Assembly: GCA_003133005.1 (NCBI GenBank)
Contig: PKZI01000096.1
Span: forward strand, 1 to 12,938
Source: Acidimicrobiaceae bacterium
GTDB taxonomy: Bacteria > Actinomycetota > Acidimicrobiia > Acidimicrobiales > RAAP-2
Length of the DNA: 12,938 nt
Direction: 5' to 3'
In this document: positions 2,168 to 12,727 of the stretch, in pieces
How the letters are laid out: every line of letters starts with the position of its first letter
How positions within the stretch are numbered: position 1 is the first letter of the stretch
Notes under the pieces: model-generated
What the model saw: the letters and a program-made list of their open reading frames with translations, nothing else
What the model was told of the DNA's origin: nothing
Databases searched by the model: none
Program-made: the position numbers and the translations under genes

Positions 2168-3202
2168 TCAGTAGCCCGTCTTCAACTCGTTGGCCCACGT
2201 GAAGACCATTGCGGGTGGTGTGTGCGCCGGGCGTTCGATGAGATCAACGAACGAGCCTGAACCATTCACGAGCGCGTAGCCCACGCCCATCTCAGAGGTG
2301 GTGCTGGTAGCTCCCACCCCGGGGTTAAACGCCGGGTCTGATCCCAGCAACTCGTCGCGGTGCGCCCAGCAGCCAAGCGATGACGGGGACGTGCAAGCGA
2401 TGTTGGACGTGTCAGCTGGACTACCACCCCATCCGTCTTCGTACATCCACGTGTAGTCGGCCGCCAAAACATTAAAACCGGCCGACCAGGCGCCACCCAT
2501 CGCTGGGTACCTGCCAGGATCCAAGGCTTCTACGAAACCCTTGGCCACGCTGGGGTCGCTGTCAGAGTTTGCCGCAGCCTGGGCGTTCGCGCTCAAGGCA
2601 ACATTGATGCCAAGGTACGCAGGCATGCCGCGAGCGGTGCGTTCAAGATTCGCGACAACGAATAATTGCTGGGGAACGCTCAATGAATACCAATTGCTTG
2701 GCAGCACCATGGCCGTAATGCCTTCAGAGGCGCGAGCATTGTTGATGGCTTGAAGGAGGTAACTCGTGCAGGTCGCACTGAAATTTGTTTCGGGAAAACC
2801 GAGTTGGGGCGTCACGCACGGATTGGCGCATTGCGCGGCCCCGTTCACGTAGGCACACGTGCCCGCGGTGAAAAAGTCGGGGCTTGGCGCGACGTTGGAT
2901 TGTGGATTGACGAGAAGGGGAAACGCCCTTGAGATGGTGGACTTCGGATCTGCGGTGGAGGCGCCAGTATCAATTACAACACCGCGCGCCGAAATCGAAG
3001 CGACGGTGTGCGGCGAAGCGCTCGCCGACGCCGATGAAACACCCGTTAACGCCACCAAACCACCCACCGCCAGCACCATTGAAAGGGCCGACACTCTACG
3101 GTGCCACGCTCGAGACAGACCACGAGGTGCCGCACATTTGGAATCCTTGGTGACTGCGTTCGCGAAACCGCTGTCGCTCGAGTGCCCTTGCATAACCTTC
3201 AT
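2168..3202 (-). CDS. Secreted CAP/SCP-like protein (putative)
   Basis: The product is about 344 residues from the ATG at 3202. An N region rich in Arg and Lys leads to a hydrophobic stretch (SALSMVLAVGGLVALTGV, about residues 41-55) and small residues (SSASASAS), so a signal peptide with cleavage near the Ala/Ser cluster is likely. After a Pro/Ser linker with Cys residues (GTCAY, QCANPC) comes the main domain. It contains LLQAINNARASEGI, LFVVANLERTARGMPAYLG, YTWMYEDGWGG, CTSPSSLGCWAHRDELLG, MGVGYA and FVDLIE. The order NNAR, then W.HRD, then GVGYA resembles CAP/SCP extracellular domains. That assignment rests on remembered motif order, not a profile match. No sorting signal or C-terminal membrane segment is visible. 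The frame is open up to 3343, but the upstream part lacks a signal-peptide character. The ATG at 3193, with GAAGG just upstream, is an alternative start. Confidence 0.72.
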   Translation of the reverse strand: MKVMQGHSSDSGFANAVTKDSKCAAPRGLSRAWHRRVSALSMVLAVGGLVALTGVSSASASASPHTVASISARGVVIDTGASTADPKSTISRAFPLLVNPQSNVAPSPDFFTAGTCAYVNGAAQCANPCVTPQLGFPETNFSATCTSYLLQAINNARASEGITAMVLPSNWYSLSVPQQLFVVANLERTARGMPAYLGINVALSANAQAAANSDSDPSVAKGFVEALDPGRYPAMGGAWSAGFNVLAADYTWMYEDGWGGSPADTSNIACTSPSSLGCWAHRDELLGSDPAFNPGVGATSTTSEMGVGYALVNGSGSFVDLIERPAHTPPAMVFTWANELKTGY

Positions 3203-3400
3203 AACTAGGATTCTGAACGCTCTGTCGCAATATCCCGACTTCGCATTCACAACAACTACGCAACAATGTCGTGAAATGGCCACACCAGGGATCTCCATAC
3301 CCGTCCAAGCGCGTGCTCGACAAGGTGCGAAAGTTGAACGCATCGGTCAGACATTTTCATTGCCGCGTTACGCTTCCAACTAGGACGTCTCGACCTCGCT

Positions 3401-3668: not shown

Positions 3669-4499
3669 ATGCCATACATCGAGATTGGTCGAGAGAATTC
3701 GGGCGCCGTCGAGCTCTATTACGAGGACCACGGCGAAGGAACCCCAGTGGTGTTGATACACGGTTTTCCGCTCAATGGTGCATCGTTCGAGAAGCAACTA
3801 CCCCCACTTCTCGCGGCCGGCTTTCGCGTTATCACGTACGACCGGCGGGGTTTTGGGATGTCGAGCAAGCCAAGCGAGGGGTACAACTACGACACCTTCG
3901 CCAGCGACGTCAAGATCCTGATGGACAAACTCGATCTGCGCGAAGCAGCGTTAGTGGGTTTTTCAATGGGTACGGGCGAAGTGACTCGCTATTTAGGCAC
4001 GTTCGGTTCCGAACGCGTTTCCAAGGCAGTTCTGGCGGGACCACTACCGCCCTATTTACTCAAGACCGACCTCAATCCTCTCGGCGTCGACCAAGGCGTT
4101 TTTACCAAGATACAAGAAGCGATCCTCGCGGATCGACCGGCGTTCTTTAAGGATTTCTTTGCGAACTTCTTCAACTTTGACGTGCTCGGAGGCACCCTCG
4201 TGAGCGAAGAAGCCGTGCAAATGTGTTGGACCGTAGCGCTCAATACGTCGCCAATTGCGACCTATGAATCGGTTCCAGCGTGGCTCGAGGATTTTCGAGA
4301 CGACTTAATGAAGTTTGATGTTCCAACACTGATAATTCAAGGTGTTGATGATCGGATCCTTCCGATCGACGCCACCGGACGCCGCTTGCCCGCGCTCATA
4401 AAGGACAGCAAACTCGTCGAAATCAAGAATGGACCTCACAACGTGTGTTGGACGCACGCTACGGAATTCAACGGCGCACTACTCGACTTTCTGACGTAG
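3669..4499 (+). CDS. Alpha/beta hydrolase, cofactor-free haloperoxidase/esterase type
   Basis: This is a 276-residue alpha/beta-fold hydrolase of the length usual for non-haem chloroperoxidases and related esterases. The oxyanion-side motif HGFPL is at 31-35, YDRRGFGMSSKP at 58-68, and the nucleophile elbow GFSMGTGEVTRYLG at 97-110 has Ser99. The acid is probably Asp228 in GVDDRILP and the general base His257 in NGPHNVCWTH. GFSMGTGEV and the final GPHN...TH..EFN..LLDFL pattern are characteristic of the haloperoxidase group. Such enzymes are mostly esterases in vivo and brominate only with peracid chemistry in vitro; the substrate here is unknown. The protein has no signal peptide, so it is cytoplasmic. 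AGAGGAG at 3656-3662, six bases before the ATG, supports this start. It is transcribed divergently from the secreted CAP-like gene. Confidence 0.93.
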   Translation: MPYIEIGRENSGAVELYYEDHGEGTPVVLIHGFPLNGASFEKQLPPLLAAGFRVITYDRRGFGMSSKPSEGYNYDTFASDVKILMDKLDLREAALVGFSMGTGEVTRYLGTFGSERVSKAVLAGPLPPYLLKTDLNPLGVDQGVFTKIQEAILADRPAFFKDFFANFFNFDVLGGTLVSEEAVQMCWTVALNTSPIATYESVPAWLEDFRDDLMKFDVPTLIIQGVDDRILPIDATGRRLPALIKDSKLVEIKNGPHNVCWTHATEFNGALLDFLT

Positions 4500-4576
4500 G
4501 CACAAAAAGGCGGTGCGCAGCGCAAGACGTTTGACCACTCTGTTCGCGCACGATGGGCTGCAAAATCCGAAGGCGA

Positions 4577-4866
4577 AGCGAGTCAGTTCCATCGTCAGAT
4601 CCAAACTTTCTGAGCGTGGGAGATGACTCACTCGCTGAAACGCGACGCCGCTTTTGGAACCAATAACTTTCACCAGCGAGGTCAGTGGATCTGGCGAATG
4701 CTCACTTTAAGGGGCATGTTGACGAGGCCGAAATCTCGCACCTGGGCCGACCCAAAATACTCCGGGAGGGGCACTGAAGTGTCCCCGGACGTGACCCTCC
4801 CTCGCAAGGGCTTATTAAGGGGGGTCACCTCAGAAAAGCTGAGAACCGGCCTCGCGGATTACGAGG
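4577..4866 (+). ncRNA. Candidate structured RNA: chain of adjacent hairpins in a gene-free stretch
   Basis: No convincing gene occupies 4500-5134. In its first half I see a dense series of complementary arms. CTCGCTG (4631-4637) pairs with CAGCGAG (4674-4680), extended by TGAC with GTCA (4624-4627, 4681-4684). CGAG pairs with CTCG (4723-4726, 4735-4738). TCCGGG pairs with CCCGGA (4761-4766, 4784-4789), with a further inner stem and loop TGAA. A 10-bp stem joins 4791-4800 and 4819-4828 with one T-G pair. CTCAG pairs with CTGAG (4829-4833, 4839-4843), and CCTCG with CGAGG (4850-4854, 4862-4866). Three of these stems abut with zero or one base between them. The wobble pairs are G-U only on the plus strand. 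It could be an RNA element or debris of a mobile element. No known RNA family is recognised, and there is no clear promoter or terminator. Confidence 0.3.
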
Positions 4867-4876
4867 TAACGAAGTG

Positions 4877-4886
4877 TCGCATGCGA
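4877..4886. promoter_or_regulatory. Perfect 10-bp palindrome TCGCATGCGA
   Basis: TCGCATGCGA is fully self-complementary and sits just after the hairpin chain. It could be a protein-binding site or chance. A small CGAAT/ATTCG hairpin at 4948-4960 follows in the same gene-free stretch. Confidence 0.2.
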
Positions 4887-4977
4887 AAAGTCGATTTCAC
4901 CCCACTTGTCAGGAAGTTGACGAAGGTTTGTCCTCACGTTGAGATTTCGAATCGTATTCGCTCGATTCTCGCAAGTT

Positions 4978-5041
4978 TTGACCACAGGAATGCTGCTTCG
5001 GCGGAACGCTCACAAAACATGAGGGCGGCAAAAGTGGTCAA
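4978..5041. repeat. Inverted repeat TTGACCAC / GTGGTCAA with a third direct copy upstream
   Basis: TTGACCAC at 4978-4985 is the exact inverse of GTGGTCAA at 5034-5041. A further direct copy of TTGACCAC lies at 4531-4538. The two direct copies share a CGCAAG a few bases upstream (4521-4526 and 4970-4975), giving an imperfect direct repeat about 450 bp apart around the hairpin-rich stretch. This may mark the edges of a decayed or excised element, but no transposase or integrase remnant is visible. Confidence 0.3.
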
Positions 5042-5134
5042 CCGAAAATCAAGAAACGGCGCAATATTGATGACGCGATATCAAATGGGCGCGGTGTCCA
5101 CGTCCCTCTTCAGGTAGTGCTCGTACAACTAAGG

Positions 5135-5182
5135 AAAAAAGAACGTTTGAAATTCTGATTCAGTTGGTACGAATCAACGTTC
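5135..5182 (-). terminator. Intrinsic terminator of the surface-protein/sortase operon
   Basis: On the minus strand, one base after the TAA stop of the last operon gene, GAACGT (5182-5177) pairs with ACGTTC (5146-5141) and TGATTC (5176-5171) pairs with GAATCA (5161-5156). This makes a 12-bp stem with a nine-base bulge on the 3' side and loop GTACCAACT. Six T residues (5140-5135) follow at once. Stem plus U-tract is the classic Rho-independent form and defines the operon's 3' end. Confidence 0.8.
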
Positions 5183-5183
5183 G

Positions 5184-5999
5184 TTAACTTGTAACCAACG
5201 CAGTGAACACAACGATGTCTGAAACGCTGCGTCCAGTGGGAGCGGTGAAAACACTTCCCACCGAAACGAGATTCAACGCACTGTACTTCTCTGGTCCGTA
5301 GACACCCTTGTATGGGTATCCCGCATTCGTGTATTGGCGAATTCCAATGACCTTGAAGGTCAGCCTCGTGTGGTCGGCCAGCGTCACCTGTAATTGCTGA
5401 CCAACCTTCAAGTCGTCAATTCGAGAAAAAACACCCGATGAGTCAATGTGTCCGAGAATCACGGCAGAGCCCAATTGTCCCGGCGCGTAACCATCCTTGT
5501 ACCACCCAGGTACTTGGTAATTCGTCGGTGACACCACCGAGCCATTCGCGTTCAATCCAACCTGTGAAACAGGAACGGAGATCCCAAGCGACGGAATCAC
5601 GAGTCGAACCGGAGCGGAGCGCGTAATAGTCGTGGTTGCGTGGTTCTCTCGAAGACCAGCGCTTTTTGCAGGCGAGGCCGGCGTTACCACGTTAGAAACA
5701 AACGCGGCGGTCGGAGTCGCGCTTGTTGTCTGAAAAACCGCGTCGGCTCCCGCTTTCACTCCGCTCGAGATGCTCGACGTCGCCGCTGGGACGCTACCTA
5801 CAGGGGCGGGCAGACTGGGACCGACCCTTGGTCCGTGAAGCCCGAAAACGATCAACAGCACCCCCGCGACAACCACCGCGGCAGACACTACCCACGCCCA
5901 GACGAATCGATGGCCCCTTTGCCGTTCCATGGCACTCACGCTAGCCCCGATTGGCTCGAATTCGTGGGAAAATGTACCACCAACGTAGAGATCCGTCAC
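5184..5999 (-). CDS. Sortase-like protein lacking the catalytic cysteine (pseudosortase)
   Basis: The product has 271 residues: a cytoplasmic N terminus, one membrane segment (about residues 33-54, WAWVVSAAVVVAGVLLIVFG), an Ala/Ser/Thr/Pro-rich stalk (about 57-128) and a sortase beta-barrel domain (about 130-271). Family motifs include RLVIPSLGI, PGWYKDGYAPGQLGSAVILGHIDSSGVF with His184 in GHID, and IRQY. At the catalytic TLxTC position it reads ALNLVSVGSVF, whereas the neighbouring sortase reads ALNLVTCGGSF over the same 11 columns. Val247 therefore replaces the nucleophilic Cys. The codon is GTG, more than one base from TGT or TGC, so a single sequencing error is unlikely. Transpeptidation should be impossible. 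A substrate-binding, partner or regulatory role is inference. The GTG start overlaps the upstream stop as GTGA, implying translational coupling; Met24 (5930) is an alternative start. A terminator follows directly. Confidence 0.9.
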   Translation of the reverse strand: MTDLYVGGTFSHEFEPIGASVSAMERQRGHRFVWAWVVSAAVVVAGVLLIVFGLHGPRVGPSLPAPVGSVPAATSSISSGVKAGADAVFQTTSATPTAAFVSNVVTPASPAKSAGLRENHATTTITRSAPVRLVIPSLGISVPVSQVGLNANGSVVSPTNYQVPGWYKDGYAPGQLGSAVILGHIDSSGVFSRIDDLKVGQQLQVTLADHTRLTFKVIGIRQYTNAGYPYKGVYGPEKYSALNLVSVGSVFTAPTGRSVSDIVVFTALVTS

Positions 6000-6592
6000 G
6001 TTGGTGTCACTTCCTTGGTGAAGACGACAATGCTCGATAGGTAGTGCCCGGTGTGAGAGTCAAACGATCCGCCACACGTCACTAAATTCAATGCCGGGTA
6101 CGAGGTCGAAAAGTTGTAGACAAGCTTGTCGGGGAAACTCGCCTTGAGGTACTGCCGGATGGCAATCACTGAAAATGACACGGTTGCACCGTCGGCCAAC
6201 TTCACGTTGACTAATTCGCCGACTTTCATGTCAACGAGACGATAGAACACGGCGGGACCCGACACCGAGTCGACGTGTCCCAAGATCACGGACGAGCCAA
6301 GTTGTCCCGGCGCGGGGCCGAGCTTGTACCAGCCTGCGGTGTACCAACTCGTAGGGACTTGGGGTGATCCGTTGGCGAGCAGACCGAGTTGGGTCAAATT
6401 CGTCGATACGCCAATCGCGGGAATCGAGAGATGCGTAGGTATCGACCGAGTTGTGGTGGACACATTGCTCGCTCCCGCCACGGATCCGCTTTGACTCAAA
6501 CTAAGTCCAACGACCGAACTGAGGAACACCGCGAGAGTTGCGGCCCAGATGACTACTCTGGGCCGCAATCTCTCGAACGGAGATTCAAACAT
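5996..6592 (-). CDS. Sortase (class E/F-like), probable anchoring enzyme for the adjacent surface protein
   Basis: The product has 198 residues from the ATG at 6592. I prefer this start to the ATG at 6598 because AAGGA, overlapping the upstream gene's stop, lies six bases before 6592 but only one base before 6598. An N-terminal membrane segment (about 14-33) is followed by a short linker and the sortase domain. The domain contains HLSIPAIGV, SWYTAGWYKLGPAPGQLGSSVILGHVD and LVDMKVGELV, then the active site NLVTCGGSFD (His106 and Cys173 in this numbering). Sortases cleave a C-terminal sorting motif and transfer the protein to the cell envelope. The order GHVD, TCGG, GHY is that of the small actinobacterial sortases. 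The usual catalytic Arg near the last strand is not obvious; the stretch reads GHYLSSIVVF. Only a few bases separate it from the giant surface-protein gene, its obvious substrate. Confidence 0.9.
   Translation of the reverse strand: MFESPFERLRPRVVIWAATLAVFLSSVVGLSLSQSGSVAGASNVSTTTRSIPTHLSIPAIGVSTNLTQLGLLANGSPQVPTSWYTAGWYKLGPAPGQLGSSVILGHVDSVSGPAVFYRLVDMKVGELVNVKLADGATVSFSVIAIRQYLKASFPDKLVYNFSTSYPALNLVTCGGSFDSHTGHYLSSIVVFTKEVTPT
6532..6575 (-). promoter_or_regulatory. 18-bp hairpin inside the start of the sortase coding sequence
   Basis: On the plus strand, bases 6532-6549 (CGAGAGTTGCGGCCCAGA) pair with 6557-6575 through a 12-bp uninterrupted GC-rich stem, one bulged T at 6569 and six more pairs. 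The loop is TGACTAC. In the minus-strand mRNA it begins 17 bases after the sortase ATG and covers codons for ERLRPRVVIWAATLAV. There is no T-run after it, so a terminator is unlikely. A brake on translation, an mRNA processing or stability element, or a pausing site is more plausible. Confidence 0.6.
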
Positions 6593-6601
6593 GGCCATTC
6601 C

Positions 6602-9600
6602 TTACGCGTGACGGCGACGTCGGAACAATAATGCCATCGCGGAAAGTCCCGCCAGCAGCATTAGAGCGCCAAGTGTCAACAACCCTCCATTGAAGGTTGT
6701 CAGCGCCATCCCACCTGCACCAGTTTGCGGCGCAGCATTGGGAATCTTGTACGACGGATTGGGATTCGAAACTACTCCGGCTGGGGCCGCTGGGGCCGCA
6801 ATCGTGAACGGCTCAGGCGTGCCCGGAGTCACAGCGGCATACGTGGTGTCGCCACTGTAACTGGCCAAGAAGTAGTAACTACCCGCAGGAAGCGTACCGG
6901 TGGTGACTGAAGAGACGGAGCTTCCACTCAAGGTCACCTGGTCAGGCGTGAAGGCCGAGACCAGCGTGCCATTGGGGAACGTTCCCGAGTAAAGCGTGAA
7001 CGTAATAGTTCCCGTTGGTGCCGCTCCTGATCCACTAATCGTCGCGGTGTCAATTGCCGTGGAGCCTGACACAGTTGGATTCGTGGTCAAACTCAGGCTG
7101 ACTGGAGGTGGTGGTGGTCCACCGCCGCCGCCAGGTGGCGGTGTCGTCGTCGTCACTACCAAGACCTCTGGTGAACCGGTGACCGTAGCTGACGTGTAGA
7201 AGGCACTCGCGGCCCCGTCAGGTGTATAGGTCGCCACGAAGTAGTAGCTGCCCGCCGCGAGAGCACCCGTAGGCGTGGACGTCGTCGCAGTGGTCGTCGT
7301 TCCGGCGCCGCTCAGTGTCTCAGTGTCGCTGTAACTCGCCACCAGCGTTCCTGGGTAGGAACCAGACCAAAGCGTAAAGGTCACGTGTCCCGAAGGAGTG
7401 CCTGTCGTGCCTGTCACGGTCACCGTGTCAGTCGCTGACGTGCCGTTAATCGATGGGGTCGTTGACACGTTGATCGAGCCCGCCGCGATACTAAATGGTT
7501 CTGGGAGTCCGATAACAGATGGATAGTTACTGTCACCTGAGTACGTCGCGATGAAGTAGTAATTACCCGGAGCGAGGGAACCCGTCGCCGTTGCGGTCGT
7601 CCCAGTCGCCGTAGTACCAGCACCGCTCAAAGTCTCGCTGTCGACGTAACCGGTGATTTGCGTTCCTCCTGGGTACGTACCGGACCAGAGTGTGAAGGCC
7701 ACCGTACCAGTAGGAGTCACCGTGTTCCCCGTCACTGTCACAGTGTCGGTGGCTGATGTACCAGTCAGCGTGGGCGTCGTCGAAACGCTCACCGTGCAAG
7801 AAGTGACCGAGAACGAACCCGTACCAGTCGTGCCCGAATAGTTAGAGTCACCCGAGTATGTGGCCACGAAGTAGTAGTTGCCTGATGACAGCGTACCGAC
7901 CGTCGCAGACGACAACGAAGCAACTCCATTGACAAGAGTCACGGAAGGGTAGGTCGTCTGCAGCACATTTGCCGAGTTGTACAGACTGAAGACAACCGAA
8001 CCAGTCGGTGTGCCCAACGAACCGCTCACTGTCGCGCTCACGCCCGTCACTGAACATGAAGAAGAGGGCGTTACGGTCACGAGTGGCGTGGCCGAAGCAA
8101 TAGTGAACGGCTCTGGCAATCCCGTCACCGCTGGATAGTTGCCGTCACCTGAGTACGTCGCGATGAAGTAGTAATTACCAGGCGACAATGTCCCTGTCGA
8201 GGTCGACGTTTCGGAGACTGATGCCCCAGCGCCGCTCAAGGTGACGGTGTCGCTGTAGCCAATCACCTGCGTGCCTGGGTAGGTCCCCGACCACAATGTC
8301 CACGTCACCGAACCACCAGGCGTCGCCGTCGATCCGGTCACCGTCACTTTGTCAGTCGCAGATGCGCCACTGAGAGTTGGAGTCGTCGACACAGTCACGG
8401 TGCATGAAGTCACCGTGAAGGTGCCCGTGCCGGTTGAGGACGAGTAGTTGCCGTCACCCGAGTAGGTCGCGAGGAAATAGTAGCCACCCGATGAGAGCGT
8501 GCCAATAGTTGCCGACGGCAATGTGGCTACGCCATTTATGAGAGGTACCGAAGCGTAAGTCGTTTGGAGCGCGTTCGCCGAATTGTAGAGACTAAAGACC
8601 ACCGAACCGGTCGGTGTGCCCGAAGATCCACTCACTGTGGCGCTCACTCCAGTCAGCGCACAGGAAGACGAAGGTGACACCGTCACGTGTGAAAGTGCCG
8701 TCGCGATACTAAACGGCTCGGGCGAACCGACGATCGATGGGTAACTAGTGTCGCCGCTGTACGTCGCGATGAAGTAGTAGTTCCCGGGGGCGAGACTGCC
8801 GGTCGTAGTCGAAGTGACCGCGATTGTAGAGCCATTGCCGGCCAAAGTGACGACGTCACTGTAACCAGTCACCTGCGTACCCGGATAGGTACCCGACCAC
8901 AGTGTGAACGTCACAGTACCCGTGGGCGTTACGGGCGAACCCGTAACTGTGGCCGTGTCGGTTGCCGACGTTCCACTTACCGACGGAACGGTGGACAGAC
9001 TCACCGTGCAGGCCGTGACCGTGAACGATCCAGTACCGCTCGCTGAGGAGTAGTTGCTGTCACCGGAGTACGTCGCGAGGAAGTAGTAACTACCAGTAGG
9101 GATCGTCGCTGACGGCAACGTGGCCACACCAGTATTACTGAGCGTTACCGCGGGGTACGTGTATTGCAGCACGTTTGCCGAGTTGTACAGGCTGAAAACC
9201 ACCGAACCAGTTGGTGTGCCCAACGAACCAGTTACGGTCGCCGTTACTCCGGTCGACGAGCACGATGAGGTGGCGCTCACTGCGACGTGTGGAGTCGCCG
9301 TCGCAATGGTGAACGGCTCCGGTGAGCCCGTGACTGCCGGGTAATTAGTGTCGCCGTTGTACCTCGCGACAAAGTAGTAGCTACCTGGGGCAAGGTTGCC
9401 CGTTGACGTCTGCGTGGTGGCGGTAGCTACTCCTGCACTACCCGCCAATGTTTCGGTGTCGGTGTAGCCAACGACCTGCGTTCCTGGGTAAGTACCAGAC
9501 CAGAGCGTGAACGAAACGGTGCCCGTGGGGGTCATCGATGAACCGGTCACGGTCACTTTGTCGGTTGCTGACAAGCCGCTGATGGAAGGGGTCGTCGACA

Positions 9601-12600
9601 CAGTCACCGTGCAAGCAGCGACGTTGAACGATCCCGTACCTGTCGAAGATGAATAGTTGCCATTCCCCGAGTACGTCGCTACGAAATAGTAGCTACCAGT
9701 CGGAAGCGAACCGATTGTCGACGATGACAGGGTCGCCACGCCCGTATTGCTTAGCGTCACTGACGTGTAGGTCGTCTGAAGCACATTCGCAGAGTTGTAC
9801 AAGCTAAAGACAACCGTGCCAGTCGGTGTGCCCGATGATCCAGTTACCGTCGCGCTCACACTTGTCAGTGAGCAGGATGAAGTTGGCGTGACGCTCACGT
9901 GAGAAACCGCCGCGGCGATGCTGAACGGCTCCGGCGAACCCGTGACTACCGGGTAGTTACTGTCTCCGTTAAAAGTCGCTACGAAGTAGTAATTGCCTGG
10001 AGCGAGCGTTCCCGTTGAGATAGACGATGCCGTGAGCGTGGTGCCACTGCCGCTCAGGGCGACGGTGTCACTGTAACCAGAGATCTGAGTGCCTGGGTAG
10101 GTACCGGACCAAAGCGTGAAGGTCACATAGCCCGACGGGGTCACGGGAGATCCTGTCACGCTCGCCGTATCGATAGCGGACGTACTGCTCACCGTTGGGC
10201 TCGTCGACACACTCACGGTGCAAGCCGCAGCCGTGAAAGTGCCCGTACCTGTCGAAGGTGAGTAGTTAGAGTCGCCGGAATATGCCGCACTGAAGTAGTA
10301 GTTGCCAGCAGCCAGTGCACCAGTCGTGGGAAGAATTGCGGTGCCACCACTCAGCGTTACGGCTGGGTATGTCGTTTGCAACACGTTCGCAGAGTTGTAG
10401 AGGCTAAAGGTCACCGTACCTGTTGGTGTGCCTGAAGAACCTGTAACCGTGGCGCTCACGTTCGTCGCGGAACACGATGAAGTGGGACTTACCGAAACGT
10501 GTGACGTAGCGGTCGCAATAGTAAACGGCTCTGGCGAACCAACGAGTGCTCCATAGTCAAGGTTTCCGTTGTAAGTCGCAATGAAGTAGTAGTTACCAGG
10601 GGCAAGTGACGCGGTAGAGATCGATGACGCGGTCAGCGTACTTCCGCTGCCACTCAAAGCAACGGTGTCACTGTAGCTAGTGATCTGAGTTCCTGGGTAG
10701 GTACCCGACCAAAGCGTGAACGTTACTGAACCCGAAGGCGTCACCGAACTTCCGGTAACCGTCGCGGTGTCAGTCGCGGTAGTGCCACTCACTGAAGGGC
10801 TCGTGGACAGACTGACCGAGCACGACGAAACCGTGAAGAGTGAACTCACTGCGCTGTAGCCCGAGTAGTTACTGTCACCCGAGTAGTTCGCGAAGAAGTA
10901 ATAGTTACCCGCGGAAAGAGAAGTAAGTGTCGGCAACGTTGCTACTCCACCGCTCAGCGTGACTGCAGGATACGTGGTCTGCAACACGAATGACGAGTTA
11001 TAGAGGAGGAACGTCACAGTCCCGGTCGGTGTGACCCCAGATCCAGTTACCGTGGCGCTCACGTTGGTAGAAGAGCACGATGACGTCGCAGTCACGGTCT
11101 CATGTGAAGGTGAGGTCGAGATGGTAAGCGGCTCAGGAGAACCGGTGACCGCCGAGTAGGTACCGTTACCGTTATACGTCGCCACGAAGTAGTAACTCCC
11201 TGGTGCGAGTGATGTCGCAGAAGTCGACGTAGCGGTGGTAGTCGAACCGCTACCGCTCAAGGCAGTCGTGTAGCTGTAGCCCGTCTGTGTTCCTGGGTAA
11301 TTTCCCTTGTACAGCGTGAAGGTCACGCTGCCCGAAGGCGTCGTAGAACTACCAGTAACGGTGACAGTGTCGGTCGCCGACGTCCCGCTCACCGACGGAG
11401 TCGTTGACACCGTCGCCGAACACGACGCGACGACGAACGTCGAACTTGATCCTGTCAATGACGAGTAGTTGCTGTCACCCGAATAAGTCGCCTTGAACGA
11501 GTAGTTGCCCGCAGCGAGAGTGCCAATAGTCGACGATGAGAGCGATGCCGATCCTCCGCTCAGCGTTACCGCGGCGTACGTGGTTACAAGAACGTTCGAC
11601 GAGTTGTACAAGCTAAACGTCACTGTGCCAGTCGGTGTGCCCGACGACCCGGAGACGGTCGCGCTCACACTCGCCGTAGAACACGAGGGCGAACTCGGCG
11701 TCAAGTTGAGAGTTGGAGTGCTCGTCGCAATCGAGAACGGCTCAGCGGAACTCGACGCGATTGGTGAATATGTGCCGCTGCCACTATAGGAATCAACCCA
11801 GTAGTAGTAGCCAGGTGCGAGACCTGAGTCCGTGGGCGAGGTAGCAGTGCCGCCACTCAGCGTCACGGCGCTCGACGTGTACACAAGCGAACCTCCGCTG
11901 GAGGGTGAGCTTGATGAGGTCTTGTACAGATTAAAGGTAACGGTCCCGGTCGGTGTGCCCGAAGTCCCCGACACTGTTGCAGAGTCGTGCGCGGAAGTTC
12001 CACTCACGGATGGAGTGGTCAAAATGCTAGGAGTCGCGGCGCCCACGGTGAATGGCTCACATGTGATGGGTGCGTACAACTGCGAAGTGGATCCGCCGAC
12101 GTTGCCGATAAGAGACGGAACGTTCCAGTCGGTGTAAGCAATGATGTAGTAACTACCAGCCGCCAAACCTGTGAAGGCTGGCGACACTGACGTCCCGTAA
12201 GGAACATTGTAACCATTTACGTTCTTCGACGTGTATGGGAACGAAGAACTTGGGTTTGCGTAAACGTACTTACGCTGATAGGGAGCGCTGTAAGGAAGAT
12301 CGGGAAAGCCGCTGATGCCACTACTGACACCACACGTGGTGGGCGTACCTTGAAAAAGATCGTACGTCAATTCGACCGTGGTGGGCGTGCCCATGTTGTG
12401 GACGTACGCAGTGTCAAACACTGTGGCGGGCGCAGGGAGAGTTGTGCTACCTGTTATCGCGGAACCACCACTCTCGGTGCACGAAGTGTAAATTGGCCCA
12501 ACGAATCCGGGTGTGTTGTCAGTCGCGCCTGAAGCCGTGCACGCTGGTGTCGCTCCGGTGTAGATCGTCGTACTGACAACATCGTGCGCACTCGCGACAC

Positions 12601-12727
12601 CGCTGACTACGAATATCGACGACAGGCCCGCAATGAGCGAGATGACTCCGACCCATGCAGTCCCCCGCATAACGCGAGTTCCGTTACGTGATTCGCTGCG
12701 ACGGTTCCGTGGGAAAACCCTAATCAT
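6602..12727 (-). CDS. Giant Ig-like repeat cell-surface protein with C-terminal sorting signal
   Basis: The product has 2041 residues. The start ATG has AAGGAG (12735-12740) seven bases upstream. Residues 1-47 form a long signal peptide: a basic N region, hydrophobic residues about 23-44, and ASA before His48. Residues 48-230 are a unique region with Cys residues; its end (GLAAGSYYIIAYTDW, CEPFTV) resembles a divergent Ig module. From about 232 come 17 Big_3-like modules of roughly 100 residues, recognised by TATVTGSxxTPTGTVTF, LAPGNYYFIATYSGDSNY and SPEPFTI. The first stands alone, 14 form seven alternating couples (about 336-1750), and two follow, separated by a PPPGGGGGPPPPP hinge. The tail (1999-2041) has APQTG, a hydrophobic segment and RRRRHA. 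Ser and Thr dominate and Lys is almost absent from the modules. It is probably a stalk, adhesin or S-layer-like protein; its ligand is unknown. It heads the operon with the two sortase-family genes. Confidence 0.93.
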   Translation of the reverse strand: MIRVFPRNRRSESRNGTRVMRGTAWVGVISLIAGLSSIFVVSGVASAHDVVSTTIYTGATPACTASGATDNTPGFVGPIYTSCTESGGSAITGSTTLPAPATVFDTAYVHNMGTPTTVELTYDLFQGTPTTCGVSSGISGFPDLPYSAPYQRKYVYANPSSSFPYTSKNVNGYNVPYGTSVSPAFTGLAAGSYYIIAYTDWNVPSLIGNVGGSTSQLYAPITCEPFTVGAATPSILTTPSVSGTSAHDSATVSGTSGTPTGTVTFNLYKTSSSSPSSGGSLVYTSSAVTLSGGTATSPTDSGLAPGYYYWVDSYSGSGTYSPIASSSAEPFSIATSTPTLNLTPSSPSCSTASVSATVSGSSGTPTGTVTFSLYNSSNVLVTTYAAVTLSGGSASLSSSTIGTLAAGNYSFKATYSGDSNYSSLTGSSSTFVVASCSATVSTTPSVSGTSATDTVTVTGSSTTPSGSVTFTLYKGNYPGTQTGYSYTTALSGSGSTTTATSTSATSLAPGSYYFVATYNGNGTYSAVTGSPEPLTISTSPSHETVTATSSCSSTNVSATVTGSGVTPTGTVTFLLYNSSFVLQTTYPAVTLSGGVATLPTLTSLSAGNYYFFANYSGDSNYSGYSAVSSLFTVSSCSVSLSTSPSVSGTTATDTATVTGSSVTPSGSVTFTLWSGTYPGTQITSYSDTVALSGSGSTLTASSISTASLAPGNYYFIATYNGNLDYGALVGSPEPFTIATATSHVSVSPTSSCSATNVSATVTGSSGTPTGTVTFSLYNSANVLQTTYPAVTLSGGTAILPTTGALAAGNYYFSAAYSGDSNYSPSTGTGTFTAAACTVSVSTSPTVSSTSAIDTASVTGSPVTPSGYVTFTLWSGTYPGTQISGYSDTVALSGSGTTLTASSISTGTLAPGNYYFVATFNGDSNYPVVTGSPEPFSIAAAVSHVSVTPTSSCSLTSVSATVTGSSGTPTGTVVFSLYNSANVLQTTYTSVTLSNTGVATLSSSTIGSLPTGSYYFVATYSGNGNYSSSTGTGSFNVAACTVTVSTTPSISGLSATDKVTVTGSSMTPTGTVSFTLWSGTYPGTQVVGYTDTETLAGSAGVATATTQTSTGNLAPGSYYFVARYNGDTNYPAVTGSPEPFTIATATPHVAVSATSSCSSTGVTATVTGSLGTPTGSVVFSLYNSANVLQYTYPAVTLSNTGVATLPSATIPTGSYYFLATYSGDSNYSSASGTGSFTVTACTVSLSTVPSVSGTSATDTATVTGSPVTPTGTVTFTLWSGTYPGTQVTGYSDVVTLAGNGSTIAVTSTTTGSLAPGNYYFIATYSGDTSYPSIVGSPEPFSIATALSHVTVSPSSSCALTGVSATVSGSSGTPTGSVVFSLYNSANALQTTYASVPLINGVATLPSATIGTLSSGGYYFLATYSGDGNYSSSTGTGTFTVTSCTVTVSTTPTLSGASATDKVTVTGSTATPGGSVTWTLWSGTYPGTQVIGYSDTVTLSGAGASVSETSTSTGTLSPGNYYFIATYSGDGNYPAVTGLPEPFTIASATPLVTVTPSSSCSVTGVSATVSGSLGTPTGSVVFSLYNSANVLQTTYPSVTLVNGVASLSSATVGTLSSGNYYFVATYSGDSNYSGTTGTGSFSVTSCTVSVSTTPTLTGTSATDTVTVTGNTVTPTGTVAFTLWSGTYPGGTQITGYVDSETLSGAGTTATGTTATATGSLAPGNYYFIATYSGDSNYPSVIGLPEPFSIAAGSINVSTTPSINGTSATDTVTVTGTTGTPSGHVTFTLWSGSYPGTLVASYSDTETLSGAGTTTTATTSTPTGALAAGSYYFVATYTPDGAASAFYTSATVTGSPEVLVVTTTTPPPGGGGGPPPPPVSLSLTTNPTVSGSTAIDTATISGSGAAPTGTITFTLYSGTFPNGTLVSAFTPDQVTLSGSSVSSVTTGTLPAGSYYFLASYSGDTTYAAVTPGTPEPFTIAAPAAPAGVVSNPNPSYKIPNAAPQTGAGGMALTTFNGGLLTLGALMLLAGLSAMALLFRRRRHA
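6605..6733 (-). other. Cell-wall sorting signal, APQTG type
   Basis: The last 43 codons encode APQTG (6719-6733), then 30-odd mostly hydrophobic residues (LTTFNGGLLTLGALMLLAGL, AMALLF) and the basic tail RRRRHA. This is the tripartite form of a sortase substrate. The motif departs from LPXTG at the first position (Ala) and from the LAXTG of class E sortases at the first two positions. Confidence 0.85.
7103..7141 (-). other. Pro/Gly hinge between the last two Ig-like modules
   Basis: Thirteen codons encode PPPGGGGGPPPPP, after a run of four Thr. It separates the C-terminal module from the rest of the stalk and probably acts as a flexible or wall-spanning linker near the anchor. Confidence 0.85.
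7478..11722 (-). repeat. Seven tandem two-module repeats of about 600-612 bp inside the surface-protein gene
   Basis: The recurring codons for EPFTI (plus-strand versions of AACGGCTC) lie near 7498, 8107, 8713, 9313, 9925, 10525, 11129 and 11737, a spacing of 600-612 bases. Each unit encodes an A module with FSLYNSANVLQTTYP and two Cys, then a B module with FTLWSGTYPGTQ and no Cys. Units are similar but clearly diverged, so the array is old or under selection rather than freshly amplified. Confidence 0.9.

Follow-up and report, generated by a model that had tools for sequence, protein, structure and literature searches.

A class F sortase relative without the catalytic cysteine, apparently retained beside an active-type sortase in an Acidimicrobiaceae bacterium

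A relative of class F sortases in which valine takes the place of the active-site cysteine, hereafter designated as the pseudosortase, is encoded in a 12,938-nucleotide stretch of DNA from an Acidimicrobiaceae bacterium (GenBank assembly GCA_003133005.1, contig PKZI01000096.1; hereafter the window, meaning the whole stretch). Sequence comparisons support the view that this protein lacks the catalytic cysteine and looks kept rather than decayed: they demonstrate homology, a single loss on the tree, an altered site common to three protein clusters and a conserved core. A single cysteine is taken to define sortases as enzymes; here, the gene of a Cys-less copy overlaps the gene of its active-type sister. 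On balance, we are inclined to regard the pseudosortase as a membrane-anchored, non-catalytic partner in an anchoring unit, descended from a Cys-bearing sortase.

Replacement of the cysteine and remodelling of the active site

The gene of the pseudosortase is adjoined on its upstream side by that of a second, Cys-bearing sortase (hereafter the partner, or sortase A, the second copy of such pairs being designated as sortase B). BLASTP analysis of the two proteins returned 89/181 identities (49%) and paired ALNLVSVGSVF of the pseudosortase with ALNLVTCGGSF of the partner gap-free, with Val247 opposite the partner's Cys175. This bears out the initial annotation of the window, which had deduced the same pairing from the letters, had noted that the GHID histidine (His184) remained and had described the reading frame as intact, as the 271-residue open reading frame is. 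The codons at the site are TCG GTG in the pseudosortase and ACG TGT in the partner, TGT and GTG differing at all three bases.

Both proteins scored above the gathering cut-off of the Pfam Sortase profile PF04203 (47.8 bits for the pseudosortase and 59.5 for the partner; cut-off 26.6). The best NCBIfam model for the pseudosortase was the class F sortase NF033748, with 115.7 bits for a curated cut-off of 166, which the Cys-bearing partner did not reach either (152.9 bits). The PF04203 profile and the predicted sortase fold place the pseudosortase in the sortase superfamily; of the two residues looked for in a catalytic class F sortase, the cysteine of the TC motif is missing and the histidine is present. 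As regards its status as a pseudoenzyme, it combines clear homology to active-type enzymes with a replaced catalytic residue, and the replacement is conserved and the gene maintained in 3/3 cluster representatives of its clade, a small number of sequences. Sortase transpeptidation relies on the active-site cysteine, and this established chemistry makes Cys transpeptidation by the pseudosortase very unlikely.

The cysteine is not the only residue concerned. In the three valine-type proteins (see below), near-invariant active-site positions are also altered at Lys225, Gly249 and Tyr258, and a three-residue deletion after the His loop removes Gly-Pro, while positions 228, 230, 232, 237 and 238, in the stretch preceding the Cys strand, are unlike those of the Cys-bearing orthologues. 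Scaffold residues and the predicted sortase fold are retained. The longest runs invariant in the trio cover residues 53-72, 163-192 and 228-249, and the juxtamembrane motif GLHGPRVGPSLPAPVG (residues 53-68) is identical in all three; its GLHGPRVGP portion is also seen in many relatives that bear Cys, flanked by variable stretches. Ser246 and Ser249 are common to the trio, the latter lying in a low-confidence loop of the pseudosortase model (residues 249-254). Solved structures gave no convincing sequence match for either sortase protein searched singly, and a profile built from the relatives matched sortases of other classes weakly (best E 0.00012).

Distribution and origin of the valine-type sortase

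When about 5.8 billion proteins were searched, 35 relatives were retrieved: three (P0001-P0003) read LVSVGS at the active site, and the other 32 read TC. The three are 99% (P0001, apparently the pseudosortase's own cluster), 79% (P0002) and 70% (P0003) identical to the pseudosortase, the cluster of P0003 having 13 member sequences, of which the representative alone was examined. Since the motif occurs in two further clusters, a sequencing error of this contig, which had been considered as a source of the valine, can be ruled out. All three carry PF04203, illustrating that this domain label alone does not imply a transpeptidase. The wider set of 234 listed homologues comprised 35/35 from one search, the best 120 of 1293 from another and the best 120 of 320 from a third (8000 candidates scored), overlaps being counted once. 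Within it, the active-site position is occupied by Cys in 230 sequences and by Val in three, the remaining one being a fragment that ends before the site, and the active-site His is present in 234/234. Source names include Acidimicrobiales or Acidimicrobiaceae (P0052, P0126, P0224), Acidobacteriota (P0145) and Amycolatopsis (P0028).

A census at the DNA level, covering 157 distinct sequences from order, family and phylum searches, showed the window alone to be without the cysteine: 154 sequences have His and Cys, one, truncated at its start, has Cys, and one gap row (L113) proved to be a misaligned sequence that does carry Cys. Near-identical sequences had been removed from the census, one locus (L033) skipped, and twelve end fragments or weakest matches left out together with many other rows. 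Having been gathered by similarity, these homologue sets are not unbiased counts. One scan of viral contigs found no relative. The sole return of one scan of genome contigs, a Lachnospiraceae locus, was 26% identical over residues 34-132, before the core except for its edge, and was not used.

Phylogenetic analysis of 122 sequences grouped the three valine-type proteins in one clade (support 100/100) within a 12-member clade (100/99) whose other nine members bear Cys; the exact sister of the valine clade is less certain (88/66). The partner sortase falls in a parallel 12-member clade (100/98). The tree leaves out P numbers 21-35, 111-147 and those above 157, a further ten named sequences that were fragments or near-copies (of which two fell within those ranges), and sortases no longer than 190 amino acids from the fetched genomic regions. 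Two of the nine Cys-bearing members, nearly identical to P0004 and P0007, are encoded in same-genus genomes (G227, locus L063, and G244, locus L064) where the gene order is an APQTG-tailed immunoglobulin (Ig)-repeat protein, sortase A and sortase B, each of the two sortases bearing Cys; in G244, the substrate gene is cut by the contig end. Because the second copies of these genomes keep the cysteine and the valine clade is nested among Cys-bearing relatives, its loss is lineage-specific, and a functional-looking sortase B is, as read from the tree, deduced to have lost it once, in the lineage of the window. The initial annotation had proposed testing whether the valine is conserved in related gene pairs and had named an intact cysteine in the second copy as a refutation: the valine is found in 3/3 clade representatives, and the intact cysteine in two same-genus genomes, so that the objection applies by half.

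Among 20 fetched regions, a sortase pair was found in two and a sortase directly following a sorting-signal protein in 13; in the remaining five, the motif scan flagged no sorting-signal protein. Further adjacent pairs of class F sortases occur in the phylum (L118 in G417, L120 in G338 and L133 in G349), their census rows having His and Cys. Another genome of the same genus (G296) carries a class F sortase remnant at L078 5732-6258, interrupted and truncated, with an internal TGA in one matched stretch and its Cys kept (LVTCAG).

Constraint after the loss

Given the single origin of the valine clade, the differences among its three members arose after the loss of the cysteine. These differences spare the core. 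Between the window protein and P0002, identities amount to 131/145 in the core, 31/58 in the linker and 16/16 in the juxtamembrane motif, and between the window protein and P0003, to 121/145, 28/54 and 16/16. Neutral simulations of the window gene with matched numbers of amino-acid differences, using a simple mutation scheme without insertions or deletions, gave means of 31 and 41 core changes for the two comparisons, versus 14 and 24 observed; none of 3000 runs had as few core changes as observed, and 235 and 92 of the 3000 runs stayed free of stop codons. For comparison, the active partner and its relative P0037 share 138/152 core positions, P0037 not being known from the same organism as P0002, nor from a genome with a valine-type copy.

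Gene context in the window

The features of the locus are listed in Table 1. The four-base overlap of the two sortase genes makes their translational coupling plausible; of the coupling asserted in the initial annotation, it is the overlap that is observed. In the source genome, which is about 65% complete, two sortases and one similar sorting tail were found. The Ig-repeat protein of the window is far longer than its counterpart beside the Cys pair of G227 (542 amino acids). In the partner sortase, a Gly has changed to Asn and a single Phe is inserted (window 6104-6118, about residues 161-165); both features are shared with P0037 and missing, at 162-163, in the 17 other Cys sequences compared. 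At the 3' end of the pseudosortase gene, positions 5100-5200 (-) fold at -29.1 kcal/mol (z -3.1) into a stable hairpin overlapping the stop codon, with a U-run about 20 nucleotides past the stem. A terminator scan of 4480-6700 gave four matches for 3.0 expected, none of them near 5184, and the terminator initially thought to close the gene was thus not confirmed. Elsewhere, an open reading frame of 391 amino acids at 2168-3343 (-) matched no Pfam or NCBIfam model within the limits applied.

Table 1. Features of the pseudosortase locus, with window positions or residues of the pseudosortase
Feature	Position	Strand	Remarks
Pseudosortase gene	5184..5999	(-)	class F sortase relative, 271 amino acids, GTG start, intact open reading frame
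Predicted transmembrane helix	residues 30-54
Juxtamembrane motif GLHGPRVGPSLPAPVG	residues 53-68 (window 5796-5843)
Variable linker	residues 69-126
Sortase core	residues 127-271
Val247 codon GTG at the active-site Cys position	5259..5261	(-)	alignment with partner sortase
His184 codon, GHID motif, retained	5448..5450	(-)	His in 234/234 listed homologues
Hairpin over the pseudosortase stop codon	5163..5199	(-)	U-run at 5135-5143; terminator role not established
Active-type class F sortase (sortase A)	5996..6598	(-)	200 amino acids, TC and GHVD motifs intact; model mean predicted local distance difference test score 87.7
Cys175 codon TGT of the partner sortase	6074..6076	(-)	alignment with pseudosortase
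GTGA overlap of both sortase genes	5996..5999	(-)	four bases
Ig-repeat protein gene, APQTG tail	6602..12727	(-)	2041 amino acids, 15 Big_3_5 stretches counted
Sorting signal APQTGAGG, hydrophobic stretch and RRRRHA	6605..6733	(-)	sorting-signal scan

Interpretation and alternatives

The ancestral locus would have been a three-gene unit composed of an Ig-repeat protein with an APQTG tail, sortase A and a Cys-bearing sortase B. Sortase B would have lost its nucleophile once, along with other active-site features, and its gene would then have been retained. The protein still has its membrane helix, juxtamembrane motif and barrel, as well as a cleft that is remodelled but shared, and the gene shares four bases with that of the active-type sortase, which in turn follows a sorting-signal protein. 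The remodelled cleft may bind instead of cutting, its target being the neighbour's sorting tail, sortase A or a cell-wall acceptor, and the anchoring of the neighbouring Ig-repeat protein may thereby be helped or tuned. A non-catalytic partner of sortase A is probably the simplest account, its exact role being conjectural. The initial annotation had also proposed a kept, non-catalytic partner, and this part agrees with the missing Cys, the valine in 3/3 of the clade and the core spared after the loss; the clamp for the same APQTG tail that it had suggested is not specially favoured, because the former pocket is remodelled.

Several observations weigh against this interpretation. Core identities between the window and G227 are 94/145 for sortase B versus 110/147 for sortase A, and between the window and G244, 88/145 versus 108/148, the control pair G227-G244 giving 109/148 for B and 107/147 for A; since B changed faster than A in the lineage of the window, selection may have been relaxed around the loss. 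Across the trio, conservation of the active-site region does not exceed that of the remaining core (22/26 versus 95/118 sites invariant, p = 0.78). The pseudosortase has no known binding partner, and, the source genome being about 65% complete, another sortase could be missing from it. The valine type is represented by three sequences only, its gene context comes from the window alone and constraint was judged on proteins.

The faster change of B would also be expected of a decaying duplicate, in which the function of sortase B was lost and the gene is slowly eroding, still open by chance; so would the concentration of changes in the active-site columns, which relaxed selection on catalysis would also produce, and the Cys kept by two close relatives. 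Decay nevertheless seems unlikely to us, as the valine and its companion changes are common to three clusters with core identities of 0.83-0.90, the post-loss differences avoid the core to an extent unmatched in the simulated runs, few of which stayed open, and the broken sortase of the same genus looks different, being interrupted and truncated with its Cys still in place. Activity might instead have been preserved by moving the nucleophile to Ser246 or Ser249, acting with His184: both serines are common to the trio, the histidine is kept, and the low-confidence loop that holds Ser249 in the model could allow a catalytic pose. We consider this highly improbable, however, given that Cys was lost jointly with Lys225, Tyr258 and the Gly-Pro that follows the His loop, and no serine sortase of this fold is known to us.

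A Cys-less copy could also act as a decoy or inhibitor, binding sorting tails or pairing with sortase A and thus limiting anchoring, which would suit the overlapping gene, the full predicted sortase fold and the invariance of residues 163-192 and 228-249 across the trio. Yet the stretch before the Cys strand is unlike that of the Cys orthologues, so that it is not evident that competition for the same tail would be unaltered, and we rate the decoy as improbable, much as we do decay. These sequences do not separate helping from hindering of anchoring, nor one binding target from another. Returning to the non-catalytic partner, a bolder version appears possible, if doubtful: the pseudosortase may represent an undescribed type of sortase pseudoenzyme, a dedicated Cys-less subunit that would form, with its active sister at the membrane, a two-part anchoring machine for the giant Ig-repeat surface protein, the stretch before the Cys strand having been reshaped in the valine-type trio (228-238) and in the active partner and P0037 (162-163).

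Comparison with known systems

The Cys-less sortase is best described, from its sequence, as a putative pseudoenzyme of the sortase family, and no natural Cys-less or inactive sortase was found described among the open-access papers listed, as judged mostly from titles and abstract openings. In the portions available, two papers deal with an inactive sortase C in Lactococcus that was engineered (PMC3516528, PMC4806873), and a third with a degenerate cleavage motif (PMC8615915). Among the best matches on sortase dimers, nothing useful was found. Together with their double-Cys relatives, the valine-type proteins form a natural before-and-after series for the role of a tandem pair's second sortase beyond chemistry.

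Wild-type class E sortases, of which structures such as 9m2n and 5go5 are solved, are catalytic, and the pseudosortase reaches only 22.6 bits on the class E NCBIfam model, versus a cut-off of 160. With class F sortases (NF033748), it shares the homology group, the N-terminal transmembrane helix, the GHxD histidine and the sortase fold, the partner being a Cys-bearing relative; unlike them, it is devoid of Cys, Lys225 and Gly-Pro, has an altered stretch before the last strand and stays below the family cut-off (115.7 bits versus 166). According to the part available of PMC13251363, what class F sortases do physiologically is unknown. An analogy in design is offered by SipA of Streptococcus pyogenes, a signal-peptidase-like protein whose catalytic dyad is replaced, whose fold and peptide cleft are kept and which is essential for pilus assembly, according to the excerpt available (PMC4049620). 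SipA belongs to the signal peptidase family of another organism, and the likeness is one of design, not of tested homology. Related to a processing enzyme yet catalytically dead, and maintained next to sortase and substrate genes, SipA may nonetheless stand, by analogy and as far as that excerpt goes, as a precedent from another enzyme family for the design of a non-catalytic partner.
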